From: a virus
Virus record (IMG/VR): IMGVR_UViG_3300046009_006292
Span: 1 to 23,003 of that record
DNA: 23,003 nt
Direction: 5' to 3' (one strand)
Shown: piece after piece, positions 26 to 21,427 of the stretch
Layout: every line of letters begins with the position of its first letter
Numbering within the stretch: position 1 is the stretch's first letter
Position numbers and translations under genes: made by a program
The notes under the pieces: model-generated
Told to the model about the DNA's origin: nothing
Databases searched by the model: none
What the model saw: the letters and a program-made list of their open reading frames with translations, nothing else

Positions 26-157
26 TAAGTCCTTATAATTCAAGGACTTACTAACCCCTTATAAATGAAGGACTTACGGAGACCAAAAACTACCGTCTTC
101 GTAAGTCCTTTGGAATCAAAGACTTAAAAAGTTATCCACATCTCACTTTTTTGTTTG
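26..157. repeat. Structured intergenic repeat, copy 1, with DnaA-box-like site
   Basis: This stretch aligns without gaps to 6119-6250 (constant offset 6093). It carries the 9-mer AAGGACTTA or its reverse complement TAAGTCCTT at 26-34 (inverted), 42-50, 68-76, 102-110 (inverted) and, with one change, 118-126. These build two hairpins: 26-34 with 42-50, and a long one with 68-83 pairing to 95-110. Next comes AAAAAGTTATCCACA, identical in both copies; its last nine bases (132-140) match the bacterial DnaA box TTATNCACA. A promoter -33 box follows directly. The layout (iteron-like repeats, DnaA box, promoter) could be a replication origin or a transcriptional control element; the sequence does not decide between them. 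Confidence 0.8.
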
Positions 158-184
158 GAATGTTCTAAATATTCCGTATCTTTG
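154..184 (+). promoter_or_regulatory. Bacteroidota-type promoter for the RNA-repair genes
   Basis: TTTG at 154-157, a 19-base spacer and TATCTTTG at 177-184 match the known Bacteroidota consensus TTTG / TAnnTTTG exactly. Transcription would begin about 7 bases downstream, giving a short A-rich leader with AAGGA before the start at 217. Confidence 0.8.
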
Positions 185-216
185 TATATCAGAAAACAAC
201 ACACAAGGACACAACA

Positions 217-675
217 ATGAACTCACAATTCATTACATACAACCTCTTCTTGGACGATGTAATAGAACCACAATATTGCTCAATATTCGAAGGAGACAAT
301 AGATACCATGAACTCAAATGGGTTGTTGTGAGAAGCCACAAAGACTTTATGCAGACTATCATCGACCGGTTCAATCAGGGTCAGTTTCCTTCATTGGTAT
401 CATTTGGTTACGAACTTAGTTGGCTTCCAACCAAGCTTGTAAAAAATTCTGATGGTTTACTTCAAGTGGTATTGGCTGATACCAACGAACCGTTTCCAGT
501 TCGTCTTGGGACTGGATTGGATTCTGTGATATTTTTGAAAGAGTGGTGTAAGGAAAACTCACTCGAACTACCAGAATGTCTCGTACATAGTACCCATATA
601 TGGGGACGAGATCAAATTTTGGAGGAGATTAACAGTGCAAAAACAACATATATCGGAGACCTAAACAATGCGTAA
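217..675 (+). CDS. cREC-like (cyclic-phosphate processing receiver-like) protein, degenerate active site
   Basis: The 152-residue product has the outline of the cREC family, a receiver-fold group predicted from comparative genomics to act on 2',3'-cyclic phosphate or related RNA ends in RNA-repair operons. Visible signatures are the N-terminal LFLDDV (residues 10-15), a WVVVRS strand (about 35-40), TGLDS followed by an amphipathic helix, and a VHSTHIWG stretch where relatives usually have an HSMNPxG-like segment. The usual S-F-D-H-D-L acidic motif reads SFGYEL, so two acidic positions are altered. The gene overlaps the RNA ligase by 8 bases, which supports a joint role. The start at 217 follows CAAGGACACAACA, an AAGGA-type ribosome-binding site. 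Family assignment is from remembered motif patterns, not a search. Confidence 0.6.
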   Translation: MNSQFITYNLFLDDVIEPQYCSIFEGDNRYHELKWVVVRSHKDFMQTIIDRFNQGQFPSLVSFGYELSWLPTKLVKNSDGLLQVVLADTNEPFPVRLGTGLDSVIFLKEWCKENSLELPECLVHSTHIWGRDQILEEINSAKTTYIGDLNNA

Positions 676-1717
676 GTTAGTAACACTTCAAACAATCAAG
701 GACATTCGCCCTATTCAAAATGCAGACGCAATCGAAGTCGCTACCGTCCTCGGTTGGAACGTCGTGGTAAAGAAGGGTGAGTTCTCCATTGGAGACACGG
801 CAATCTATTTTGAGATTGATTCTTTCCTACCATGTGAGCCACACTTCGAGTTTCTCCGTAAGGGTTGTTACAAACAACTTCCTGATGGAAGTGAAGGATT
901 CCGTCTTCGTACTGTAAGACTTCGTGGCCAACTTTCACAGGGTTTACTTCTTCCACTCCAAAACTTCCCCGATATTGATTTTTCGGGAATGTCAATCGGC
1001 GATGAAGTAACAGAACTACTCGGTGTAACAAAGTATGAACCACCGATGCCTGCGGTGTTGGCTGGTGATGCAAAGGGGTTGTTTCCTTCGTTCATTCAAA
1101 AGACAGACCAAGAGAGAATCCAAAATCTCTATGACGACTACAAGTCTATGTATGCGGATGAAGAGTTCGAGGTAACAGTAAAACTCGACGGTTCTTCGGC
1201 AACATACTACTTCAAGGATGGTGAGTTTGGAGTTTGTTCTCGGAATCTTGAACTGAAAGAAACAGAAGGTAATTCGTTTTGGAAGGTCGCCCGTAAGTAT
1301 GAGATTGAAAGAATCCTTCGATACCTACACGGAGAAACAGGAATGAATCTCGCTCTTCAAGGTGAATTGATTGGTGAGGGTATTCAAGGAAATCGTGAAG
1401 GTCTCCGTGGTCAAGACTTCTATCTCTTTGACATCTACAACATTGATGAGGGTCGGTATCTTCCACCAGATGAGCGAAGTGCAAGAAAGAGTCTAATTGC
1501 TGAGTTTGCTGTCATCAATCACGTTCCAAGACTTCAGATCATGAAGCCGTTTCAAATGTCTTTGGATGAGTTGTTGGAGTTTGCTAACGGTACTTCTCTG
1601 AACAATCCTATTCGTGAAGGACTTGTGTTCAAGTCTGTTCGTCCACTTCCCCCAACGAATCAAATCGTTACGTTCAAGGTAATCTCGAACAAGTACCTTG
1701 AAAACGGCGGTGAGTAA
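668..1717 (+). CDS. ATP-dependent RNA ligase, DraRnl/Rnl5 (DRB0094) type
   Basis: The 349-residue protein has an N-terminal OB-like domain (about 1-100: IQNADAIEVATVLGW, then a GDTAIYFEIDSFLP segment) followed by a nucleotidyltransferase domain. Motif I is KLDGS with the AMP-accepting lysine at K172; motif IV is EGLVFKS from residue 317, and motif V includes the lysine near K337. An N-terminal OB module before the ligase core is the hallmark of the Deinococcus DRB0094-type ligases, unlike T4 Rnl1 or Rnl2. It would seal nicked or broken RNA using ATP. The gene overlaps the cREC-like gene and sits just upstream of the tRNA cluster, fitting repair of tRNAs cut by host anticodon nucleases; that target is inferred. 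Confidence 0.9.
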   Translation: MRKLVTLQTIKDIRPIQNADAIEVATVLGWNVVVKKGEFSIGDTAIYFEIDSFLPCEPHFEFLRKGCYKQLPDGSEGFRLRTVRLRGQLSQGLLLPLQNFPDIDFSGMSIGDEVTELLGVTKYEPPMPAVLAGDAKGLFPSFIQKTDQERIQNLYDDYKSMYADEEFEVTVKLDGSSATYYFKDGEFGVCSRNLELKETEGNSFWKVARKYEIERILRYLHGETGMNLALQGELIGEGIQGNREGLRGQDFYLFDIYNIDEGRYLPPDERSARKSLIAEFAVINHVPRLQIMKPFQMSLDELLEFANGTSLNNPIREGLVFKSVRPLPPTNQIVTFKVISNKYLENGGE

Positions 1718-1724
1718 AAAATCG

Positions 1725-1756
1725 CTTGGAATTCTCATAACTATTCCGTATCATTG
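1725..1756 (+). promoter_or_regulatory. Bacteroidota-type promoter
   Basis: CTTG at 1725-1728, a 20-base spacer and TATCATTG at 1749-1756 match the promoter class seen at 154, including the TTGGAA and TTCCGTAT extensions. It would drive the gene at 1790 and rules out an ATG at 1754, which lies inside the promoter. Confidence 0.7.
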
Positions 1757-1789
1757 TATAACAGAAAACAACACCCAAAGGAAACAACA

Positions 1790-2101
1790 ATGAAAACACT
1801 GATTCAGAACTACGCCAATATGCGTGATGAAGAACTTGTCCAAGAATACCGTAATTTGGTAGGTGGTGATGAGATCATTGACTATTTAGACGGCGAATTC
1901 ACCATGATTCAGCTTCTATACAAGTTGTTGTATAACGCACCAGAACATGGCGAAGAAATTGAACCTACTGATGGAGATGATTCTCTGTATGCGAAATTCT
2001 CGGAAGTAATTCCACCCCATATTCAAAACAAGATTTTCTTACAGGAAATTGGTCGGGAAGAACTCATTCAACGATTAGACGTAAATAATCGTGGTATCTA
2101 A
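1790..2101 (+). CDS. Small acidic protein of unknown function
   Basis: This 103-residue product begins MKTLIQNYANMRDEELVQEYRN and is rich in Asp and Glu, with predicted helices and no signal peptide or membrane segment. I do not recognise the family. The start at 1790 is chosen over the upstream in-frame ATG at 1754 because that one lies in the promoter, and because 1790 follows AAAGGAAACAACA, the same leader type as the gene at 217. It has its own promoter and is separated from the next gene by another, so it is probably a monocistronic early-type gene. Acidic small early phage proteins often bind host factors, but nothing here shows that. Confidence 0.75.
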   Translation: MKTLIQNYANMRDEELVQEYRNLVGGDEIIDYLDGEFTMIQLLYKLLYNAPEHGEEIEPTDGDDSLYAKFSEVIPPHIQNKIFLQEIGREELIQRLDVNNRGI

Positions 2102-2109
2102 AAAAATCA

Positions 2110-2141
2110 TTTGGAATTGTCAGAAATTTTTCGTATTATTG
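2110..2141 (+). promoter_or_regulatory. Bacteroidota-type promoter
   Basis: TTTG at 2110-2113, a 20-base spacer and TATTATTG at 2134-2141, with the class extensions GGAATTGTC and TTTTCGTAT. It precedes the gene at 2167 by about 25 bases and may also transcribe into the intron-split tRNA. Confidence 0.7.
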
Positions 2142-2166
2142 TATAACACAATCACGGAATGAGAGA

Positions 2167-2538
2167 ATGATTACAAACAAACAAGTTTTTGAACAGGGCA
2201 AGTTGGTTCAACATTATCCGATTGACCACAATCCATTTACGGGTGAACAAGAGTCAAACGGTGGTGTAGAGAATCTTGTTATCTTTGACCACAAGGTTTA
2301 TTCTGTTCTCACAGACTTCACGGGTTCTATTGCAGATGCAAATGGTGAACCGAGTTTGGTGACGGATGATGCCGAAGGATTTATGAACACGATGTTTATC
2401 TTTGATGACCCCGAAGAAGTCCTAAAGGCAGAAACAGAAGCCCAAGAAGAAGTCGATTACGATGAATGGGAACGATGGGAATCTGCACACGGTATTCAAG
2501 AAATTGACGATGATTGGATGAGACAAGAAGATTGGTAA
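2167..2538 (+). CDS. Acidic protein of unknown function
   Basis: A 123-residue protein with a strongly acidic C-terminal third (many Glu and Asp with Trp and Tyr: VDYDEWERWESAHGIQEIDDDWM). No catalytic motif, signal or membrane segment is visible and I do not recognise the family. It has its own promoter at 2110-2141 and GAGAG just before the start. It ends 9 bases before the tRNA at 2548 with no terminator between, so the first tRNA is probably co-transcribed with it. Confidence 0.75.
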   Translation: MITNKQVFEQGKLVQHYPIDHNPFTGEQESNGGVENLVIFDHKVYSVLTDFTGSIADANGEPSLVTDDAEGFMNTMFIFDDPEEVLKAETEAQEEVDYDEWERWESAHGIQEIDDDWMRQEDW

Positions 2539-2547
2539 GATGAATTT

Positions 2548-2854
2548 GGGGTCTTAGCTCAACGGTTAGAGCATCCGACTCATGTTAATAAACGTGCCCC
2601 AACTAGGAAACTTTTTGGTGAGCAGGGGATGAATTCAAGAAAACCTACGGGGAAACCTATGGCAATCTTGAGCCAAGCTCCCGATACATCGGGAGAAGGT
2701 GCAGAGACTACTGGAGAGGTAAAGTCCTCTTAATGACCAGAATAAGCGTCCCCCACCTAAATCAAATTGATATGGTGATGAAATAGTCCGGAGAGTATCG
2801 AAAGATACACAAATCTGAATCGGCAGGTTCTCGGTTCAAATCCGGGAGGCCCCA
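2548..2854 (+). tRNA. tRNA with CAU anticodon, probably tRNA-Ile2, split by a group I intron
   Basis: The exons (2548-2583 and 2818-2854) join into a 73-nt cloverleaf. The acceptor is GGGGUCU/AGGCCCC, the D stem GCUC/GAGC, the anticodon loop CUCAUAA and the T stem CUCGG/CCGGG. The top pair of the anticodon stem (27-43) is U-C, a mismatch. The CCA end is not encoded. The D arm and anticodon loop resemble bacterial tRNA-Ile(CAU), whose C34 is changed to lysidine so that it reads AUA, more than elongator tRNA-Met; the identity therefore depends on host TilS and is probable, not certain. The intron lies between anticodon base 36 and base 37. Confidence 0.9.
2584..2817 (+). ncRNA. Group I self-splicing intron (IC3-like) in the tRNA anticodon loop
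   Basis: The 234-nt insertion has the group I core. P1 is CAUGUU (2581-2586) pairing with AACGUG (2591-2596), with the U-G pair at the 5' splice site. P2 is CCCC (2597-2600) with GGGG (2625-2628). The stretch GGCAATCTTGAGCCAAGC (2661-2678) matches the P3/P4 region, GGTGCAGAGACTA (2698-2710) contains the P7 5' strand GACTA, and TAGTC (2784-2788) is its partner. P9 is GTATC-GAAA-GATAC. The intron ends in G at 2817. These match the small introns of cyanobacterial tRNA-Leu and Azoarcus tRNA-Ile(CAU), and the latter also uses a CAU target with a GUG guide. There is no ORF inside. Confidence 0.93.
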
Positions 2855-2889
2855 CAAATTTTTTGTAGAGAATCTATCTATTTATAGGT

Positions 2890-3741
2890 ATGAATCAAAG
2901 TGTATGTCCCATATGTTCTTCCCCGAAGAAGGAATCTAATAAATTCTGTTCCTATTCTTGCCGTAATAAATCAAGAGTTTGGAATGATGAAAGTAGACAA
3001 AGATTATCGGAATCGGTGAAAAAGTCGATACAAAATGATTACTACGAAAAGATTTATACCTGTTCAACTTGTGGTAATACTGAAACAAGAAATGTACATA
3101 AAAATAAGAAAGAACGTAAATTTTATTGTTCTTCAAAATGCGCACATTCTCGTATAAGAAACGAATCTGTAAAAGATAAAATATCAAATTCTGTAAAATC
3201 TTATTATGATAAAGTTGGTAGATTTGAAGGTCTCGTAATAAAGTGTGAAGGATGTCAAGTAGATTTCTTTACAAAGAAACGAACACAACGATTTTGTTCA
3301 CGTAGTTGTGCTTCAAAATTCAATATGTCACTCGATTCAAGAAAAGAACGGTCTCGGTTGAGAATGATGAAGACACTTGAATCTCTTTCCCAAAAAAGAA
3401 GAAGTAAGAATGAAATCATGTTTTTTGAATTGTGTATTTCAGAGTTCAGTAATGTAAAACACAATGAATCCATTTTTGATGGATGGGATGCCGATGTTAT
3501 CCTAATGGATGAAAAGGTTGCCGTTTTGTGGAACGGAAAATGGCATTATGAGAAGATAACAGAAAGGCACAGTGTGTCTCAGGTTCAAAATAGAGATAGA
3601 TTGAAAATGAAAGCCATGACTAAAATTGGTTGGACACCGTATGTCATAAAAGACATGGGCCGTCATAATAGGACTTTCGTAAAAACCGAATTTGAAAAAT
3701 TCAAACAATGGTTGAAAAATCATTTGGAAATGTCAAAATAA
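2890..3741 (+). CDS. EDxHD (Vsr-like) homing endonuclease with zinc-finger array
   Basis: The 283-residue protein has three N-terminal CxxC...CxxxC fingers (C6/C9/C20/C24, C58/C61/C80/C84, C119/C122/C136/C140) and then a Vsr-like nuclease fold. Likely catalytic positions are E175 (RSKNEIMFFE), D200 or D202 (GWDAD), H219 (GKWHYE) and D236 (QNRDR). This is the EDxHD pattern of phage homing endonucleases such as I-Bth0305I. The gene is free-standing, starting 36 bases after the intron-bearing tRNA ends, so it is not intron-encoded. It looks more AT-rich than the ligase gene, as expected for an invading element. There is no good Shine-Dalgarno site; a TCTATTTAT motif lies 5 bases before the ATG. 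Confidence 0.85.
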   Translation: MNQSVCPICSSPKKESNKFCSYSCRNKSRVWNDESRQRLSESVKKSIQNDYYEKIYTCSTCGNTETRNVHKNKKERKFYCSSKCAHSRIRNESVKDKISNSVKSYYDKVGRFEGLVIKCEGCQVDFFTKKRTQRFCSRSCASKFNMSLDSRKERSRLRMMKTLESLSQKRRSKNEIMFFELCISEFSNVKHNESIFDGWDADVILMDEKVAVLWNGKWHYEKITERHSVSQVQNRDRLKMKAMTKIGWTPYVIKDMGRHNRTFVKTEFEKFKQWLKNHLEMSK

Positions 3742-3754
3742 TTTCGTATCTTTG
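3723..3754 (+). promoter_or_regulatory. Bacteroidota-type promoter for the tRNA cluster
   Basis: TTTG at 3723-3726, a 20-base spacer and a perfect TATCTTTG at 3747-3754. It overlaps the endonuclease stop codon and lies 12 bases before the tRNA-Lys gene, so it probably drives the four-tRNA block. Confidence 0.75.
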
Positions 3755-3766
3755 ATAGTATAAGAT

Positions 3767-3839
3767 GATTTCGTAGCTCAGTTGGTAGAGCAACAGACTT
3801 TTAATCTGTGGGTCGTGGGTTCGAGCCCCACCGAAATCA
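3767..3839 (+). tRNA. tRNA-Lys (anticodon UUU)
   Basis: A complete 73-nt cloverleaf: acceptor GATTTCG/CGAAATC, D stem GCTC/GAGC, anticodon stem ACAGA/TCTGT around loop CTTTTAA, T stem GTGGG/CCCAC. CCA is not encoded. Confidence 0.96.
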
Positions 3840-3844
3840 CTAAT

Positions 3845-3928
3845 GCCACCGTGGCGAAATAGGCAGACGCAACAGACTTAAAATCTGTTATCCGCAAGGG
3901 TGTAGGGGTTCAAGTCCCCTCGGTGGTA
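3845..3928 (+). tRNA. tRNA-Leu (anticodon UAA)
   Basis: An 84-nt class II tRNA with a long variable arm. The acceptor is GCCACCG/CGGTGGT, ending in a G-U pair. The anticodon stem ACAGA/TCTGT encloses loop CTTAAAA, and the T stem is GGGG/CCCC-rich. The anticodon arm stem is the same as in the neighbouring Lys and Arg tRNAs. It is intron-free, unlike cyanobacterial tRNA-Leu(UAA). Confidence 0.95.
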
Positions 3929-3945
3929 CTGTGGAATAAATGTAC

Positions 3946-4017
3946 GCGCCAATAGTTTAATGGTGAAAACCGGCTTCTTATACAGGTCAGACCAGGGTTC
4001 GATTCCCTGTTGGCGTA
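3946..4017 (+). tRNA. tRNA, probably Ile (anticodon UAU), with weak anticodon stem
   Basis: A 72-nt cloverleaf: acceptor GCGCCAA/TTGGCGT (terminal G-U), D stem GTTT/AAAC, T stem CAGGG/CCCTG. The anticodon stem that keeps U33 is GGCTT/AGGTC, with two G-U wobbles, around loop CTTATAC, giving UAU. Shifting the loop to read CTT breaks the stem. If the first tRNA is Ile2(CAU), both would read AUA, which is odd. Confidence 0.6.
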
Positions 4018-4032
4018 CAAATAAAATAAAAC

Positions 4033-4106
4033 GCACCCGTAGCTCAGTTGGATAGAGCAACAGACTTCTAATCTGTGGGCCATTGGTTCAAATCCAATCG
4101 GGTGTG
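4033..4106 (+). tRNA. tRNA-Arg (anticodon UCU)
   Basis: A 74-nt cloverleaf with acceptor GCACCCG/CGGGTGT, anticodon stem ACAGA/TCTGT around loop CTTCTAA, and a T stem of ATTGG/CCAAT. It reads AGA/AGG. CCA is not encoded. Confidence 0.95.
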
Positions 4107-4143
4107 CTTACGTGTTATCGTTCTTTGAAACAAGGAGACTATT

Positions 4144-4509
4144 ATGGATATAACATCATTCAGTCTGGGTATTTCGTTTGTGGTGGTCGTGGGGATGCTT
4201 GCGGTTACCGTTTACAATTTATTCAGGGTGTACAAAATGAACAAAGAAATACAAGAAATCAATAGTTCTTTCAATTTGAATTTTGAAAATTCATACAGAA
4301 CGATTGACGAAAACAAGACGATTGCAACGATGGAGAACGAAACGGTTTGGCGTGAATTCCGAGATATGAATTCAAAAATTGATTCCCGTCTCGATAAGTT
4401 GATTTACCGACTTGACCGACTGGAACGAGAGAGATTGGGTACATCAAGAGATGACGAAGCTATTTCAGGACGAGTGAAGAAACTTCAAAAAGAATTACTA
4501 AACGATTGA
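4144..4509 (+). CDS. Single-pass membrane protein with cytoplasmic coiled coil, unknown function
   Basis: The 121-residue protein has one hydrophobic N-terminal helix (about residues 6-28, SLGISFVVVVGMLAVTVYNLF) followed by positive residues (RVYKMNK) and a long charged segment with heptad-like leucines (about 75-120), suggesting an inner-membrane anchor and a coiled coil. The start is set by CAAGGAGACTATT just upstream. It lies between tRNA-Arg and tRNA-Ser, an unusual place for a protein gene. I do not recognise it; a spanin or holin is possible from the topology alone, but there is no supporting motif. Confidence 0.75.
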   Translation: MDITSFSLGISFVVVVGMLAVTVYNLFRVYKMNKEIQEINSSFNLNFENSYRTIDENKTIATMENETVWREFRDMNSKIDSRLDKLIYRLDRLERERLGTSRDDEAISGRVKKLQKELLND

Positions 4510-4538
4510 TAAACTAAACAGAAGAACGATAACACATT

Positions 4539-4623
4539 GGAGGGTTGCCCGACCGGTAAGGGGTCGGTTTGCTAAACCGAAGCCGAGTACAAGCTCGAAC
4601 TGGTTCGATTCCAGTACCCTCCG
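4539..4623 (+). tRNA. tRNA-Ser (anticodon GCU)
   Basis: An 85-nt class II tRNA with acceptor GGAGGGT/ACCCTCC, anticodon stem TCGGT/ACCGA around loop TTGCTAA, and a long variable arm (AGCCGAGTACAAGCTCGAACT region). It reads AGC/AGU. CCA is not encoded. Confidence 0.95.
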
Positions 4624-4633
4624 CAAAAAAAGA

Positions 4634-4665
4634 TTTGGAAATTACGAAATTTTTTCGTAATATTG
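4634..4665 (+). promoter_or_regulatory. Bacteroidota-type promoter
   Basis: TTTG at 4634-4637, a 20-base spacer and TAATATTG at 4658-4665, with the extensions GGAA and TTTCG. It lies just after tRNA-Ser and serves the helicase-like gene; the in-frame ATG at 4670 falls at the expected transcription start. Confidence 0.65.
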
Positions 4666-4702
4666 AATATTGAAATTTAACATTTACGTTTTGAGGATTG
4701 AA

Positions 4703-6121
4703 ATGGCAAAGTCATCAACCACCAATTCTTTGGATCCAAGAATTGATTATTTAGTAAATCCGTTTATGAAACTAATAACTCAAAAAGAGTTTTCAAATAA
4801 ACGGAATACCATGCACATATTTCGAGGTGTTACTGGACAAGGTAAGACCCATACTTGTATTCACGATTGGATTCCTGCCTTATTGTCAAAGGGTATTCGT
4901 CTAATGGTTTACTCTGTACCAATGAATGAAATTCGTCAAGATGATGAATTTGAAATTGCATCTTTGGGATATGATGTACGACCATTAGTTGTTCGAGATG
5001 ATTTTGATAAAGCCCAATACTTTTTAGAAAATACTAATCATCCTATTATCTTTATTACCACTAACCAAAATTGGACTGGTAATAAGGGTAGGTCGTTCCA
5101 AGAATGGGCCATTGATAATTTGGGAAAAAATAAAATTGGATTTTGTCTTGATGAAGCCCATACTTGGTTGGTATCGTGTCACCCTAATTATAGAACAGTA
5201 GTTGGTAGTTCAACTCCTACATATGAGGCAATTTTATTCAAACAATTGAGCAAGTTGGCCAAAGTAACACCATATGTCTTTGGAATGACTGCAACACCAA
5301 ATTCAGAAATGCTCGGTAGTATTGTCCCCGCTCCTGGTATGAAGTTTGAGATTATTAACGAAATGGCAGATAAGAAACTTCTTGTTTCAAGAACTGCTTG
5401 GTTAAATCTTCTTGAACATTACGAAAGAGGTAAAGAAGAATTTGCATTTCAAAAAACAATTGACGATTTTCTCAAAAAAGAATCAGACAACAAGCCGGTT
5501 ATGATGATTCATGTTTGTAGAGAACCAAACGAATGGGATGTTGATAATACATTAGAATACCTGAAGAATCACTTAGACATATCTGGACCTTTTGATAAGA
5601 GTCAAAACGAAAAACTAATAGTGGTGCTTACCGATAAGAGAAAGTTTGTAACAGATATTAACGGGAATAAAGAAACATTGAATGACCAAACCGCCCTCAA
5701 ATATCTGCGGGACCCAAAACATCCTGCTCGTTTTTTGATTGTTGTTGAAAAAGGGAAGTGTGGTATGAACGTTCAAAATTTATCTTCATACTTTTCTTTC
5801 CGTTTTATAGACCGAAAAGATTTAGAGGGCTCATACATAACAACAAGTTTTTTACAAACAGCTGGTCGTTTTGTGAGACCAAATGTATCGAAGAATTATT
5901 TAGATAGTAATAATGATTTAACTAATTTCGTTCGTTCCGTAAAAGAAAATCACAAGTACACCAAGTCACAAAAAAAGTCAATTATTGATGATTTGATTAG
6001 GACTAATTCATTTGACATTTGTGTCCCAAAAACAGAAACATGGGTGGAATCTATGAGAATATTCAGTAAAGATTATTGTAGTTCTACGATTGATTCCCGT
6101 AAATGGATTAAGTCCGTGTAA
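4703..6121 (+). CDS. SF2 DEAH-type helicase-like ATPase
   Basis: The 472-residue protein has a superfamily 2 motor. Motif I is GVTGQGKT (residues 42-49), motif II DEAH (150-153), motif III a TAT in GMTATPN, and motif VI QTAGRFVRP near the C-terminal third. A segment with RFLIVVEKGKCGMNVQ matches motifs IV/V. It resembles type III restriction Res/UvsW-like cores without a nuclease or methylase domain. The role is probably DNA or RNA remodelling; the substrate cannot be told. The start at 4703 follows GAGGATTGAA and is preferred to 4670, which coincides with the promoter start site. The gene appears AT-richer than the ligase and polymerase genes and is flanked by a tRNA and by repeat copy 2, both common recombination points. 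Confidence 0.8.
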   Translation: MAKSSTTNSLDPRIDYLVNPFMKLITQKEFSNKRNTMHIFRGVTGQGKTHTCIHDWIPALLSKGIRLMVYSVPMNEIRQDDEFEIASLGYDVRPLVVRDDFDKAQYFLENTNHPIIFITTNQNWTGNKGRSFQEWAIDNLGKNKIGFCLDEAHTWLVSCHPNYRTVVGSSTPTYEAILFKQLSKLAKVTPYVFGMTATPNSEMLGSIVPAPGMKFEIINEMADKKLLVSRTAWLNLLEHYERGKEEFAFQKTIDDFLKKESDNKPVMMIHVCREPNEWDVDNTLEYLKNHLDISGPFDKSQNEKLIVVLTDKRKFVTDINGNKETLNDQTALKYLRDPKHPARFLIVVEKGKCGMNVQNLSSYFSFRFIDRKDLEGSYITTSFLQTAGRFVRPNVSKNYLDSNNDLTNFVRSVKENHKYTKSQKKSIIDDLIRTNSFDICVPKTETWVESMRIFSKDYCSSTIDSRKWIKSV

Positions 6122-6250
6122 CCCCTTACACCGCAATGACTTACTAACCCCTTTATTTTCAAGGACTTACGGAGACGGAATCTCCCACCCTTCGTAAGTC
6201 CTTGATATATAAGGACTTAAAAAGTTATCCACACCCTCATTTTTTGCTTG
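6119..6250. repeat. Structured intergenic repeat, copy 2, with DnaA-box-like site
   Basis: This is the gap-free counterpart of 26-157. It carries AATGACTTA (6135-6143), AAGGACTTA (6161-6169), TAAGTCCTT (6195-6203) and AAGGACTTA (6211-6219), then AAAAAGTTATCCACA ending at 6233. The main hairpin pairs 6160-6171 with 6193-6204; its outer pair is C-G where copy 1 has G-U, a compensating change. An inner GGAGA/TCTCC hairpin (6171-6175 with 6181-6185) and an alternative 6196-6203/6211-6218 hairpin are also possible. It begins at the helicase stop codon and runs into the next promoter. Confidence 0.8.
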
Positions 6251-6278
6251 GATTTGTCCTCAAATAGCCGTAGTTTTG
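6247..6278 (+). promoter_or_regulatory. Bacteroidota-type promoter after repeat copy 2
   Basis: CTTG at 6247-6250, a 20-base spacer and a perfect TAGTTTTG at 6271-6278. It is positioned relative to the DnaA-box-like site exactly as the promoter at 154, with one extra spacer base. It drives the small-gene block from 6315. Confidence 0.75.
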
Positions 6279-6314
6279 TATATCAAGTTCAATCACAGAC
6301 AAAGTGGGTTTCAC

Positions 6315-6653
6315 ATGAATTACGTTATCATTCCGTCAACACATGAGATGTTGTGTAACGATAATCGTTTCCGAGTCCGTCCGTGGTTCGGAACAGAAAA
6401 TTGGTGTGTCAAGTCTTACAAAACAATCGGCCGTGCTTTGTCTTCGGCAAAGAAGTTTCGTCAAACATTACACAATGAGGGTTTCGTAATGTCAATTCAC
6501 AACGAACGAATCCGTAATACGGATGAATTTGAAATTTGTGCAAATGGTCTTGTTTGTTGGAATGAAAATTCAGCAACAATCGAGTCACTCGTGAACAATC
6601 ACAAAAACGGTATTCAAAACGATTTTCCTGTAACATTTACGAAGGTTGCCTAA
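6315..6653 (+). CDS. Small protein of unknown function
   Basis: A 112-residue protein starting MNYVIIPSTHEMLCNDNRFRV, basic in its first half (several Arg and Lys) and with no membrane segment or recognisable motif. The start at 6315 is chosen over the in-frame ATG at 6276 because that one lies in the promoter. It is the first gene of a compact block in which each gene touches or overlaps the next. I do not recognise the family. Confidence 0.7.
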   Translation: MNYVIIPSTHEMLCNDNRFRVRPWFGTENWCVKSYKTIGRALSSAKKFRQTLHNEGFVMSIHNERIRNTDEFEICANGLVCWNENSATIESLVNNHKNGIQNDFPVTFTKVA

Positions 6654-8185: not shown

Positions 8186-8473
8186 ATGATTACTGTTGAT
8201 GCTGCTGGTCGTATTCGTCTTTCTCGTGAAGCTTCTCGTGGTGCAGGATTCCGTCCTGGTCAAAAGATTGCTGTTGTTGCTGAAGGACAAAATTCGTTCC
8301 GTATTCAGTCTGCCGCAAAGACTGCGAAGTCTGTTGACTCCGCTCGTTATTCGGTGGAACTCGATGGTCGCATCCGTGTTGCAAAGACGGCTGTCCGTGA
8401 ACTCGGTGTGAAGTCGAAGCGGAAGAATATGTCAGCTGATGTTCAGAAGGGAAGTATCGTCGTCACTATGTAA
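8186..8473 (+). CDS. Duplicated AbrB/MazE-like (swapped-hairpin) DNA-binding protein
   Basis: The 95-residue protein reads as two similar halves. The first is ITVDAAGRIRLSREASRGAGFRPGQ, then a KIAVVAEGQNSFRI strand region. The second is YSVELDGRIRVAKTAVRELGVKSKR ending in QKGSIVVTM. Each resembles the AbrB/MazE/SpoVT half-domain (V-D-x-x-GRI-x-L/V ... L-G-x-x-PG), in which two chains normally pair. A tandem fusion would let one chain make the full DNA-binding fold. It would be a transcription regulator or chromatin-like protein; the assignment is by pattern only. It is basic and Ala/Arg/Ser-rich. The upstream region is T-rich with no clear class promoter. Confidence 0.6.
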   Translation: MITVDAAGRIRLSREASRGAGFRPGQKIAVVAEGQNSFRIQSAAKTAKSVDSARYSVELDGRIRVAKTAVRELGVKSKRKNMSADVQKGSIVVTM

Positions 8474-18015: not shown

Positions 18016-19011
18016 ATGGAAACAAATATCATTTTAGAAGGCGACTGTATTGAATCAATGAAGAAGTTGCCGGATGCTTTTATCAACACCTGCGTTACTT
18101 CACCACCTTACTATGGTCTTCGTGATTACGGAGAAGATGGTCAGATTGGTCAAGAAGAAACACCACAACAATACATTGATAAGATGGTTGAAGTGTTTGC
18201 AGAAGTTCGTCGTATTCTTCGTGATGACGGAACTCTTTGGTTGAATCTTGGTGATTCATATGCTGGAAGTGGCAAGGGTGCTTACGGAGATGGTGTAGTT
18301 AGATTATCAGAGAAGTCAAAGATTCAAGCTGGTAGTAAAGGAACTACAACTGGAACATTCAAGAAGACAAGTGTCCAAACTTTGAAACCAAAGAATCTTA
18401 TGGGTATTCCGTGGAGAACTGCAATGGCTCTCCAAGAAGATGGTTGGTATCTTCGTCAGGATATTATTTGGGCAAAGCCAAACCCAATGCCTGAGTCAGT
18501 CACGGATAGATGTACAAAGGGACACGAGTATATTTTCTTGATGACGAAGAACCCTGATTATTATTTTGACTACCAAGCTATCCGAGAACGTTCTGTTTCA
18601 AAGATGGACAGAGAACATCTTTCTCCGATTGGTGGAAAGAAGAACGCACTAAAACCTGGTTCGTATTCAGGTAATGCTCCAGAGAACGATGGGTTTAGAA
18701 ACAAACGTTCTGTGTGGAATGTTCCTATCCGAGCAAAGTCATACGAAGGAGCACACTTCGCAGTTTACCCCGAAGACCTTATCACACCTTGTGTTCTTGC
18801 TGGTGCTCCCGAAGGTGGTATTGTCTTTGACCCATTCTTTGGTGCAGGAACAACTGGTGCAGTTGCAATCAAGAACGGAAGAACTTACATTGGTTGTGAG
18901 TTGAATCCAGAGTATATCCAAGTTGCAAAGAATCGTCTTGACCCAATTCATCTCAAGGATGAGAATATGAAAAAGGCAGATGGTATTATTCAAAGTTACT
19001 TCCAATTCTAA
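18016..19011 (+). CDS. DNA methyltransferase A (beta-class), with candidate clamp-binding tail
   Basis: The 331-residue enzyme has catalytic motif IV TSPPYYGLRDYG (S29-P-P-Y32) early and the SAM motif DPFFGAGTTG (from D272) late, the order of beta-class amino-methyltransferases. SPPY is usual for N4-cytosine, and sometimes N6-adenine, modification. Shared blocks LRDDGTLWLNLGDSY and GWYLRQDIIWAKPNPMPESV are nearly identical in the next gene; the stretches between them, likely target recognition, differ. The C-terminus is IIQSYFQF, matching the polymerase tail pattern. No restriction nuclease is adjacent. The stop overlaps the next start by one base. Confidence 0.93.
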   Translation: METNIILEGDCIESMKKLPDAFINTCVTSPPYYGLRDYGEDGQIGQEETPQQYIDKMVEVFAEVRRILRDDGTLWLNLGDSYAGSGKGAYGDGVVRLSEKSKIQAGSKGTTTGTFKKTSVQTLKPKNLMGIPWRTAMALQEDGWYLRQDIIWAKPNPMPESVTDRCTKGHEYIFLMTKNPDYYFDYQAIRERSVSKMDREHLSPIGGKKNALKPGSYSGNAPENDGFRNKRSVWNVPIRAKSYEGAHFAVYPEDLITPCVLAGAPEGGIVFDPFFGAGTTGAVAIKNGRTYIGCELNPEYIQVAKNRLDPIHLKDENMKKADGIIQSYFQF

Positions 19012-20033
19012 TGATAGATACCAACGTTATATTGGAAGGTGATTGCATCCAATCTCTGAAATCATTACCGGAAGGTATTGTAAATACGTGCATAACTTCG
19101 CCACCTTATTACGCTCTTCGTGATTATGGTGCGGATGGACAAATTGGATTGGAAAAAACACCTGAAGAATATGTCCAAAAGTTGGTAGAAGTATTCAGAG
19201 AAGTAAAACGTGTTCTTCGTGATGATGGGACTCTTTGGTTGAATTTAGGTGATAGTTACGTCGGCGGGAAAGGATCAAGTGGGCAAGGTTCGTCTGAATA
19301 TCAGTCGATACGGGCTTCCGATGGTGTATCTATAAATCAACACTATCATAACATAGGTGGTAAAGGTGAAGTCCGCCCAACCGATAATATGGCTGTCATG
19401 CGAAAGTTGCGTCTAAAACCAAAAGACCTTATTGGAATTCCGTGGATGGTTGCATTTGCTCTTCGTAATGACGGGTGGTATCTTCGTCAGGATATTATTT
19501 GGCACAAACCAAATCCTATGCCTGAATCTGTATCGGATAGATGTACAAAATCTCACGAGTATATTTTCCTTCTTTCCAAGTCAAAGACATATTACTATGA
19601 TGCGGAAAGTATAAAGGAACCGGTCAAACAAGATTGGGGAACAAGAGATAGAACAAACGGAAAGTATCACAATACCGGAACTGGCTTGAATCCACATACT
19701 GGATTACAAAAGTCATATGAGAAGGCAAACAAACGTTCTGTTTGGTCTATCACAACAAAACCATTTCACGGAGCACACTTTGCAACTTTCCCACCTGATT
19801 TGATTGAACCTTGTGTTATTGCAGGTTCACCTGAAGGTGGAATTGTATTAGACCCATTCTTCGGGTCAGGAACAACTGGTTTGGTCGCAATGAGAAATAA
19901 TAGAAAATATCTTGGATGTGAACTAAATTCTGAGTATATTAGTATTGCGAATGAAAGATTGAAGCCAGTAGAAACAGAAATCAAAAACAAAGAAATTACA
20001 GAATCTCTTATTCAGAATTATTTTCAATTCTAA
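19011..20033 (+). CDS. DNA methyltransferase B (paralogue of A), with candidate clamp-binding tail
   Basis: The 340-residue paralogue of the preceding enzyme has TSPPYYALRDYG (S30-P-P-Y33) and DPFFGSGTTG in the same beta-class order. The segments between LGDSY and LKPK, and between the KSKTYYYDAESI region and RSVW, differ strongly from the first copy, so it probably has another target sequence. It ends in LIQNYFQF, again Q-x-Y-F-x-F at the carboxyl end. Its ATG shares a base with the upstream stop, showing coupled translation, and the sliding clamp follows after 25 bases. The pair arose by tandem duplication; the third methyltransferase at 13433 is not close to it. Confidence 0.93.
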   Translation: MIDTNVILEGDCIQSLKSLPEGIVNTCITSPPYYALRDYGADGQIGLEKTPEEYVQKLVEVFREVKRVLRDDGTLWLNLGDSYVGGKGSSGQGSSEYQSIRASDGVSINQHYHNIGGKGEVRPTDNMAVMRKLRLKPKDLIGIPWMVAFALRNDGWYLRQDIIWHKPNPMPESVSDRCTKSHEYIFLLSKSKTYYYDAESIKEPVKQDWGTRDRTNGKYHNTGTGLNPHTGLQKSYEKANKRSVWSITTKPFHGAHFATFPPDLIEPCVIAGSPEGGIVLDPFFGSGTTGLVAMRNNRKYLGCELNSEYISIANERLKPVETEIKNKEITESLIQNYFQF

Positions 20034-21341: not shown

Positions 21342-21365
21342 AAAGGGAACTTCGGTTCCCTTTTT
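21342..21365 (+). terminator. Intrinsic terminator with UUCG tetraloop
   Basis: AAAGGGAAC (21342-21350) pairs with GTTCCCTTT (21355-21363) around TTCG, and T's continue to 21365. It is directly followed by the clamp-loader promoter. Confidence 0.93.
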
Positions 21366-21367
21366 CA

Positions 21368-21399
21368 TTTGGAAATGTCCCAAAAATTTCGTATATTGT
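21368..21399 (+). promoter_or_regulatory. Class promoter for clamp loader genes
   Basis: TTTG at 21368-21371, a 20-base spacer and TATATTGT at 21392-21399, with the extensions GGAAATGTC and TTTCG. It lies 29 bases before the gp44-like start and 3 bases after the terminator. Confidence 0.7.
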
Positions 21400-21427
21400 A
21401 TTCATCTGATAACAATAAGGTTTCAAA

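Follow-up and report, generated by a model that had tools for sequence, protein, structure and literature searches.

Putative promoter cassettes with palindromes and a probable DnaA box, dispersed in contigs of probable T4-like Bacteroidota phages

A viral contig of 23,003 bases (IMG/VR record IMGVR_UViG_3300046009_006292, analysed over its whole length and hereafter called the window) carries two structured repeats, at positions 26-157 and 6119-6250. With moderate confidence, we read each of them as a copy of a promoter cassette that is dispersed through the genome of a T4-like phage of Bacteroidota and is predicted to be bound by a dimeric factor together with host DnaA. Host DnaA is probably used here as a regulator of genes, rather than for starting replication at these two spots. 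The window carries T4-like replication genes, and its family-B DNA polymerase recovered thousands of matching records, mostly from T4-like phages; with the host judged from the type of promoter described below, the source is probably a T4-like phage of Bacteroidota.

The two repeats align without gaps and are identical at 96 of 132 positions, against 56 of 132 for the next best match of this length within the window, indicating that the colinear structured repeats reported by the initial annotation are real. Each contains three 25-bp palindromes of the form TAAGTCCTT-N7-AAGGACTTA at offsets 0, +26 and +76, the spacer of 7 nt being fixed by the construction of the search. In the first copy the two distal palindromes lie at 26-50 (TAAGTCCTT-N7-AAGGACTTA) and 52-76 (TAACCCCTT-N7-AAGGACTTA) and the promoter-proximal one at 102-126 (TAAGTCCTT-N7-AAAGACTTA), with no strand assigned to any palindrome; they are followed on the plus strand by the DnaA-box 9-mer TTATCCACA (132-140) and a Bacteroidota-type promoter (155-184; -33 TTGG, -7 TATCTTTG). 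The second copy repeats this layout, with palindromes at 6119-6143 (TAACCCCTT-N7-AATGACTTA), 6145-6169 (TAACCCCTT-N7-AAGGACTTA) and 6195-6219 (TAAGTCCTT-N7-AAGGACTTA), the 9-mer TTATCCACA at 6225-6233 and the promoter at 6248-6278 (-33 TTGG, -7 TAGTTTTG), the latter two again on the plus strand. In both, the promoter-proximal palindrome is separated by 5 nt from TTATCCACA, which is in turn separated by 14 nt from the promoter; the earlier placement of the box about 14 bases upstream of the -33 element is thus exact when measured from the box end to TTGG. The identical block ending in the DnaA consensus was likewise correctly recognized, except in its length: it comprises 20 rather than 15 bases (GACTTAAAAAGTTATCCACA, at 121-140 and 6214-6233, ending in TTATCCACA). 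What had been described as iterons are indeed repeated half-sites, but they are arranged as inverted pairs. A search of the entire window found exact TTATCCACA only at the two positions given above, and all 7 exact copies of the half-site AAGGACTTA within the two repeats; with up to one mismatch the latter occurs 20 times in the window versus 6.2 +/- 2.5 times in shuffles.

Related contigs were gathered by pattern and protein searches, and include G001/G002 (99.98% identical to each other across 10.5 kb, with G002 being 92-97% identical to the window across about 11 kb), G003 and the contigs that overlap it (G014/G015/G017/G018), G016, G019, G042 and, more distantly related, G036. A census of the composite site in six contigs of this clade, the window among them and together spanning 147 kb, recovered 14 copies: two each in the window, G002, G003 and G042, five in G016 and one in G019. 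Since some of these copies are orthologous, they represent about nine loci. The composite site is absent from the sister phages G032 (177 kb), G031, G039 and others, whose polymerases are about 80% identical at the amino-acid level, and from Mel-JY01, the isolate whose DNA polymerase matches best (65%). When viral contigs were scanned with AAAAAGTTATCCACA alone, almost none of the matches listed had the longer block.

The promoter, TTGG...TAnnTTTG, is attached to all 14 copies, and the order palindrome, box, promoter is found in 13 of them. Strict promoters (-33 TTTG or TTGG and -7 TAnnTTTG at a spacing of 19-21 bp) occur five times in the window and not at all in shuffles. In nearly all copies the first open reading frame (ORF) starts 60-72 nt past the TTG, placing the promoter directly before the next gene; at G016:8517, where the automatic start call fell on an in-frame TTG, translation more likely begins at an ATG further along that frame. 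Every composite copy also contains TTATCCACA or TTTTCCACA, both matching TTWTNCACA, with one copy having it only in reversed form beside a decayed box. The 14 nt seen in the window is one of two typical distances between box and TTG, the values being 14 nt in five cases and 16 nt in one, or 4 nt in four cases and 5 nt in one; for two reversed boxes the distance is 6 and 7 nt. The two groups thus differ by about one helical turn.

The six contigs hold 18 DnaA-box 9-mers, 14 of which sit no more than 90 bp upstream of a promoter, a region amounting by our own arithmetic to about 2% of the sequence, the promoter of the first window copy, which falls outside the regular expression, having been taken from a separate promoter scan. 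Among the meanings offered by the initial annotation, host DnaA as a regulator of promoters is the best fit, given that in related contigs the composite site that includes the box is tied to promoters in 14 places. This placement also bears on the possibility that the boxes are decoys, which titrate host DnaA and thereby block host replication initiation. Extra boxes do titrate DnaA in E. coli, and the number of boxes would rise with phage copy number; nevertheless, decoys need no fixed place beside promoters, and outside G016 the total number of boxes exceeds chance only modestly, making this explanation highly improbable.

The 9-mer itself is probably a DnaA box. Its variation is almost solely between TTATCCACA (the A-form) and TTTTCCACA (the T-form), in either orientation, with the T-form replacing the A-form at two orthologous sites, namely the G042 copy at promoter 30711 and in G036. 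In 37 of 80 sampled Bacteroidota genomes closely spaced tandem pairs of TGTGGAWAA were recovered, versus 2 for a reversed-pattern control; these pairs, which often combine one A-form and one T-form, may mark Bacteroidota origins. It could alternatively be argued that the 9-mer is an outer portion of the site read by the (phage) regulator of the palindrome itself, with the match to a DnaA box being coincidental. Such a view accords with the constant gap of 5 nt between box and palindrome in the forward copies, and with palindromes lacking a box being mostly away from the promoter-proximal place. Nevertheless, reversed boxes with other gaps are found at G016 3396 and 2400, and the drift from A-form to T-form is as in DnaA boxes, with Bacteroidota genomes pairing both forms in tandem; hence, we consider a coincidental match unlikely.

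Several observations weigh against the reading as a cassette bound by a dimeric factor and host DnaA. At G003:8554-8592 the copy is inverted, with 63 nt between its box and the downstream TTG of a promoter facing a tRNA cluster, and this arrangement is conserved in G036, there with TTTTCCACA as the box. At G016:2400 a decayed box, TTATCCCCA, is retained at the usual place beside the reversed one. Because some copies are orthologs of one another, few independent loci underlie the spacing classes. Closely spaced pairs of the A-form TTATCCACA are absent from 26 Flavobacterium relatives, and the flanks of the DnaA gene in Flavobacterium relatives are without a box cluster. Finally, no gene could be assigned to the palindrome-binding factor. 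As a separate observation, a 95-aa protein encoded at 8186-8470, the halves of which resemble AbrB-type repeats by eye with no Pfam support, is a candidate for such a factor.

The initial annotation had described a hairpin with at least one compensating pair, G-U at 67/111 versus C-G at 6160/6204. The difference exists, but it concerns a single pair at the edge of a stem built from the half-sites of two adjacent palindromes. Across 26 distinct palindromes there is no pair with a compensatory double change, so that an RNA-like hairpin finds no backing in covariation. Instead, changes on one side only break pairs, leaving 11 of the 26 palindromes mismatched at arm position 4 and 12 at arm position 7, and the letters of the half-sites at other positions are near-invariant. 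As sequence is conserved and pairing is not, the palindromes appear to be double-stranded half-sites rather than RNA hairpins, and their pattern of conservation is that of a site for a dimeric DNA-binding protein. Either repeat is able to fold in single-stranded form (z of -4.9 and -6.2), as is expected of inverted half-sites, and the foldable stretch of each lies upstream of its own promoter.

The same data make it very unlikely that the palindromes are RNA stem-loops serving the upstream gene as terminator or 3'-end signal, as in strict-sense promoter/stem-loop cassettes (PeSLs). It is true that the exact palindrome often follows tRNA genes in other bacteria, and that in 8 of the 9 copies having an upstream ORF (in G002, G003, G016, G019, G042 and the window) the stop codon of this ORF is the TAA of a palindrome, which implies that the cassette abuts the end of the upstream gene. 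In the window, the stop at 6119-6121 of a helicase-like gene with a ResIII match (4703-6121, plus strand) opens the first palindrome of the second copy. But beyond the missing compensatory changes and the tolerated mismatches at positions 4 and 7, no T-run follows the palindromes and no terminator was predicted at the copies. The actual form of terminator used in this genome is displayed at 21343-21401, where a stem-loop, AAAGGGAACTTCGGTTCCCTTTTT, precedes a promoter without a DnaA box, constituting a PeSL-like cassette. Terminator-promoter cassettes of similar form are found in G003, G022, G036 and G042, and their presence as separate units points to two cassette classes in these phages.

As to the origin of the factor, exact TAAGTCCTT-N7-AAGGACTTA gave a single Bacteroidota match, at a gene end, among 102 bacterial genome stretches judged by title or locus. 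This near-absence from Bacteroidota genomes favours a phage factor and renders a host regulon of the exact form unlikely. In the 102 stretches (L351-L452; e.g. L352:3161, L379:4000, L402:4419), mainly those of Spirochaetota and Planctomycetota, the palindrome often lies a few bases from a tRNA 3' end and next to a tyrosine integrase gene. Despite these neighbours, a tyrosine-integrase site was rejected for the phages, as no integrase-like ORF was found in their contigs. The motifs of Bacteroidetes host SOS regulators (CTAA-N5-TTAG, GGA-N5-TCC and TTAC-N5-GTAA; PMC8565304) do not match the palindrome, and a literature search by its letters returned unrelated papers only. An unrelated viral contig carries eight exact copies within 570 bp (L335:4303-4871).

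The copy number of the site also bears on its proposed role in replication. The copies could conceivably be promoter-coupled, transcription-primed origins at which DnaA or a phage initiator loads the replisome. T4 has several such origins located at promoters, and the combination of initiator-like repeats, DnaA box and promoter resembles that of iteron origins. However, about nine loci are already present in partial genomes, with one box per copy, and this number argues against two dedicated origins. The initial annotation had itself held that many copies at every early promoter, with no replication peak, would speak against origins; the loci found come near to this, weakening the proposal, yet not every promoter carries the site. 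The GC-skew check it had suggested showed no sustained reversal at either copy in the window. Overall, we regard origins as distinctly unlikely.

A further suggestion, that the repeats bound an exchangeable module, is right as a description. The segment 6118-6289 is 89% identical to its counterpart in G002 over 172 bp, with unrelated sequence on both sides: upstream is the helicase-like gene in the window versus a tRNA-Ser in G002, and downstream a gene of 112 aa versus one of 164 aa. In G042 the same cassette stands behind another upstream ORF. The 112-aa gene (6315-6653, plus strand), the first behind the second copy, has no assigned function, and the 164-aa gene takes its place in both G002 and G042. 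Behind the first copy, and likewise on the plus strand, lie a gene for a 152-aa protein with a weak, sub-cutoff cREC_REC match (217-675) and an RNA ligase gene (668-1717). Elsewhere in the window, a group I intron (Rfam RF00028, 2572-2810) interrupts a tRNA-Met-like gene (CAT) at 2548-2856, which is followed by an ORF with a weak match to HNH endonucleases (2890-3741); in G001/G002 and G042 the tRNA appears to be continuous. Two adjacent paralogous genes at 18016-19011 and 19011-20033 are DNA methyltransferase-like by translation.

In the favoured reading, that of a promoter cassette bound by a dimeric factor and host DnaA, a host-type promoter would have just upstream of it one DnaA box and, further upstream, one to three 25-bp palindromes. 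The palindromes would be bound by a dimeric factor, most likely encoded by the phage. Host DnaA would occupy the box, which in most cases lies 4-5 or 14-16 nt before the -33 element; from there it could contact RNA polymerase, and DnaA has been reported to do so and to act near lambda promoters (PMC3985674). Side by side, the two proteins would recruit or time RNA polymerase, so that accessory operons, including those for RNA ligase, DNA ligase, the tRNA cluster, an AAA ATPase and a large VWA-like protein, would be switched on or timed together. As a side effect, the repeated cassettes could supply homology for the swapping of genes between them. More tentatively, these sites might define a regulon extending over the whole phage, with host DnaA required as co-activator or timer alongside the phage dimeric factor and with some sites perhaps also serving as multiple transcription-primed origins. 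If this is true, repair ligases, tRNAs and accessory operons would be tied to the replication-initiation state of the host, letting phage genes follow the host cell cycle directly. Such systematic use of DnaA at many promoters would be unexpected, since lytic T4-like phages come equipped with replication machinery of their own. It would also establish a second, terminator-free class of shuffling cassettes beside the PeSLs, and T4-like Bacteroidota phages would gain their first regulatory map.

These architectural features can be compared with several known systems. Plasmids and P1 possess origins combining iterons with DnaA boxes, in which repeated initiator-like sites lie beside a DnaA box and a promoter, as they do here. 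In the cassettes, however, the half-sites are inverted rather than direct, no initiator gene was seen, and the many copies per genome, with one box each, exceed the one or few sites per replicon of such origins. The promoter part of the cassette fits the consensus of the sigma-ABfr promoters of Bacteroidota (-33 TTTG and -7 TAnnTTTG; PMC6847099), although it varies less in the phages (TTGGA...TTCCGTAnnTTTG) and, in a subset, is accompanied by the upstream composite site. Parallels are also seen with lambda pR/pO, where host DnaA occupies phage sites close to promoters and is able to influence transcription (PMC3985674), as is predicted here; but in lambda a few sites serve one control region, whereas here there is one box per cassette, at many promoters and beside a palindrome. 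Finally, as far as the PeSLs of T4-type phages are summarized in a secondary account (PMC4503421, citing Arbiol 2010 and Comeau 2014), they resemble the present element in being small, repeated intergenic cassettes whose promoter immediately precedes the next gene and which are kept while the flanking genes are swapped, as in the comparison of 6118-6289 with G002 and G042. Measured against the same account, the present cassette differs in being without a terminator, as judged from the lack of a T-run, of compensatory pairing and of a predicted terminator, and in holding a DnaA box and palindromes conserved in sequence.

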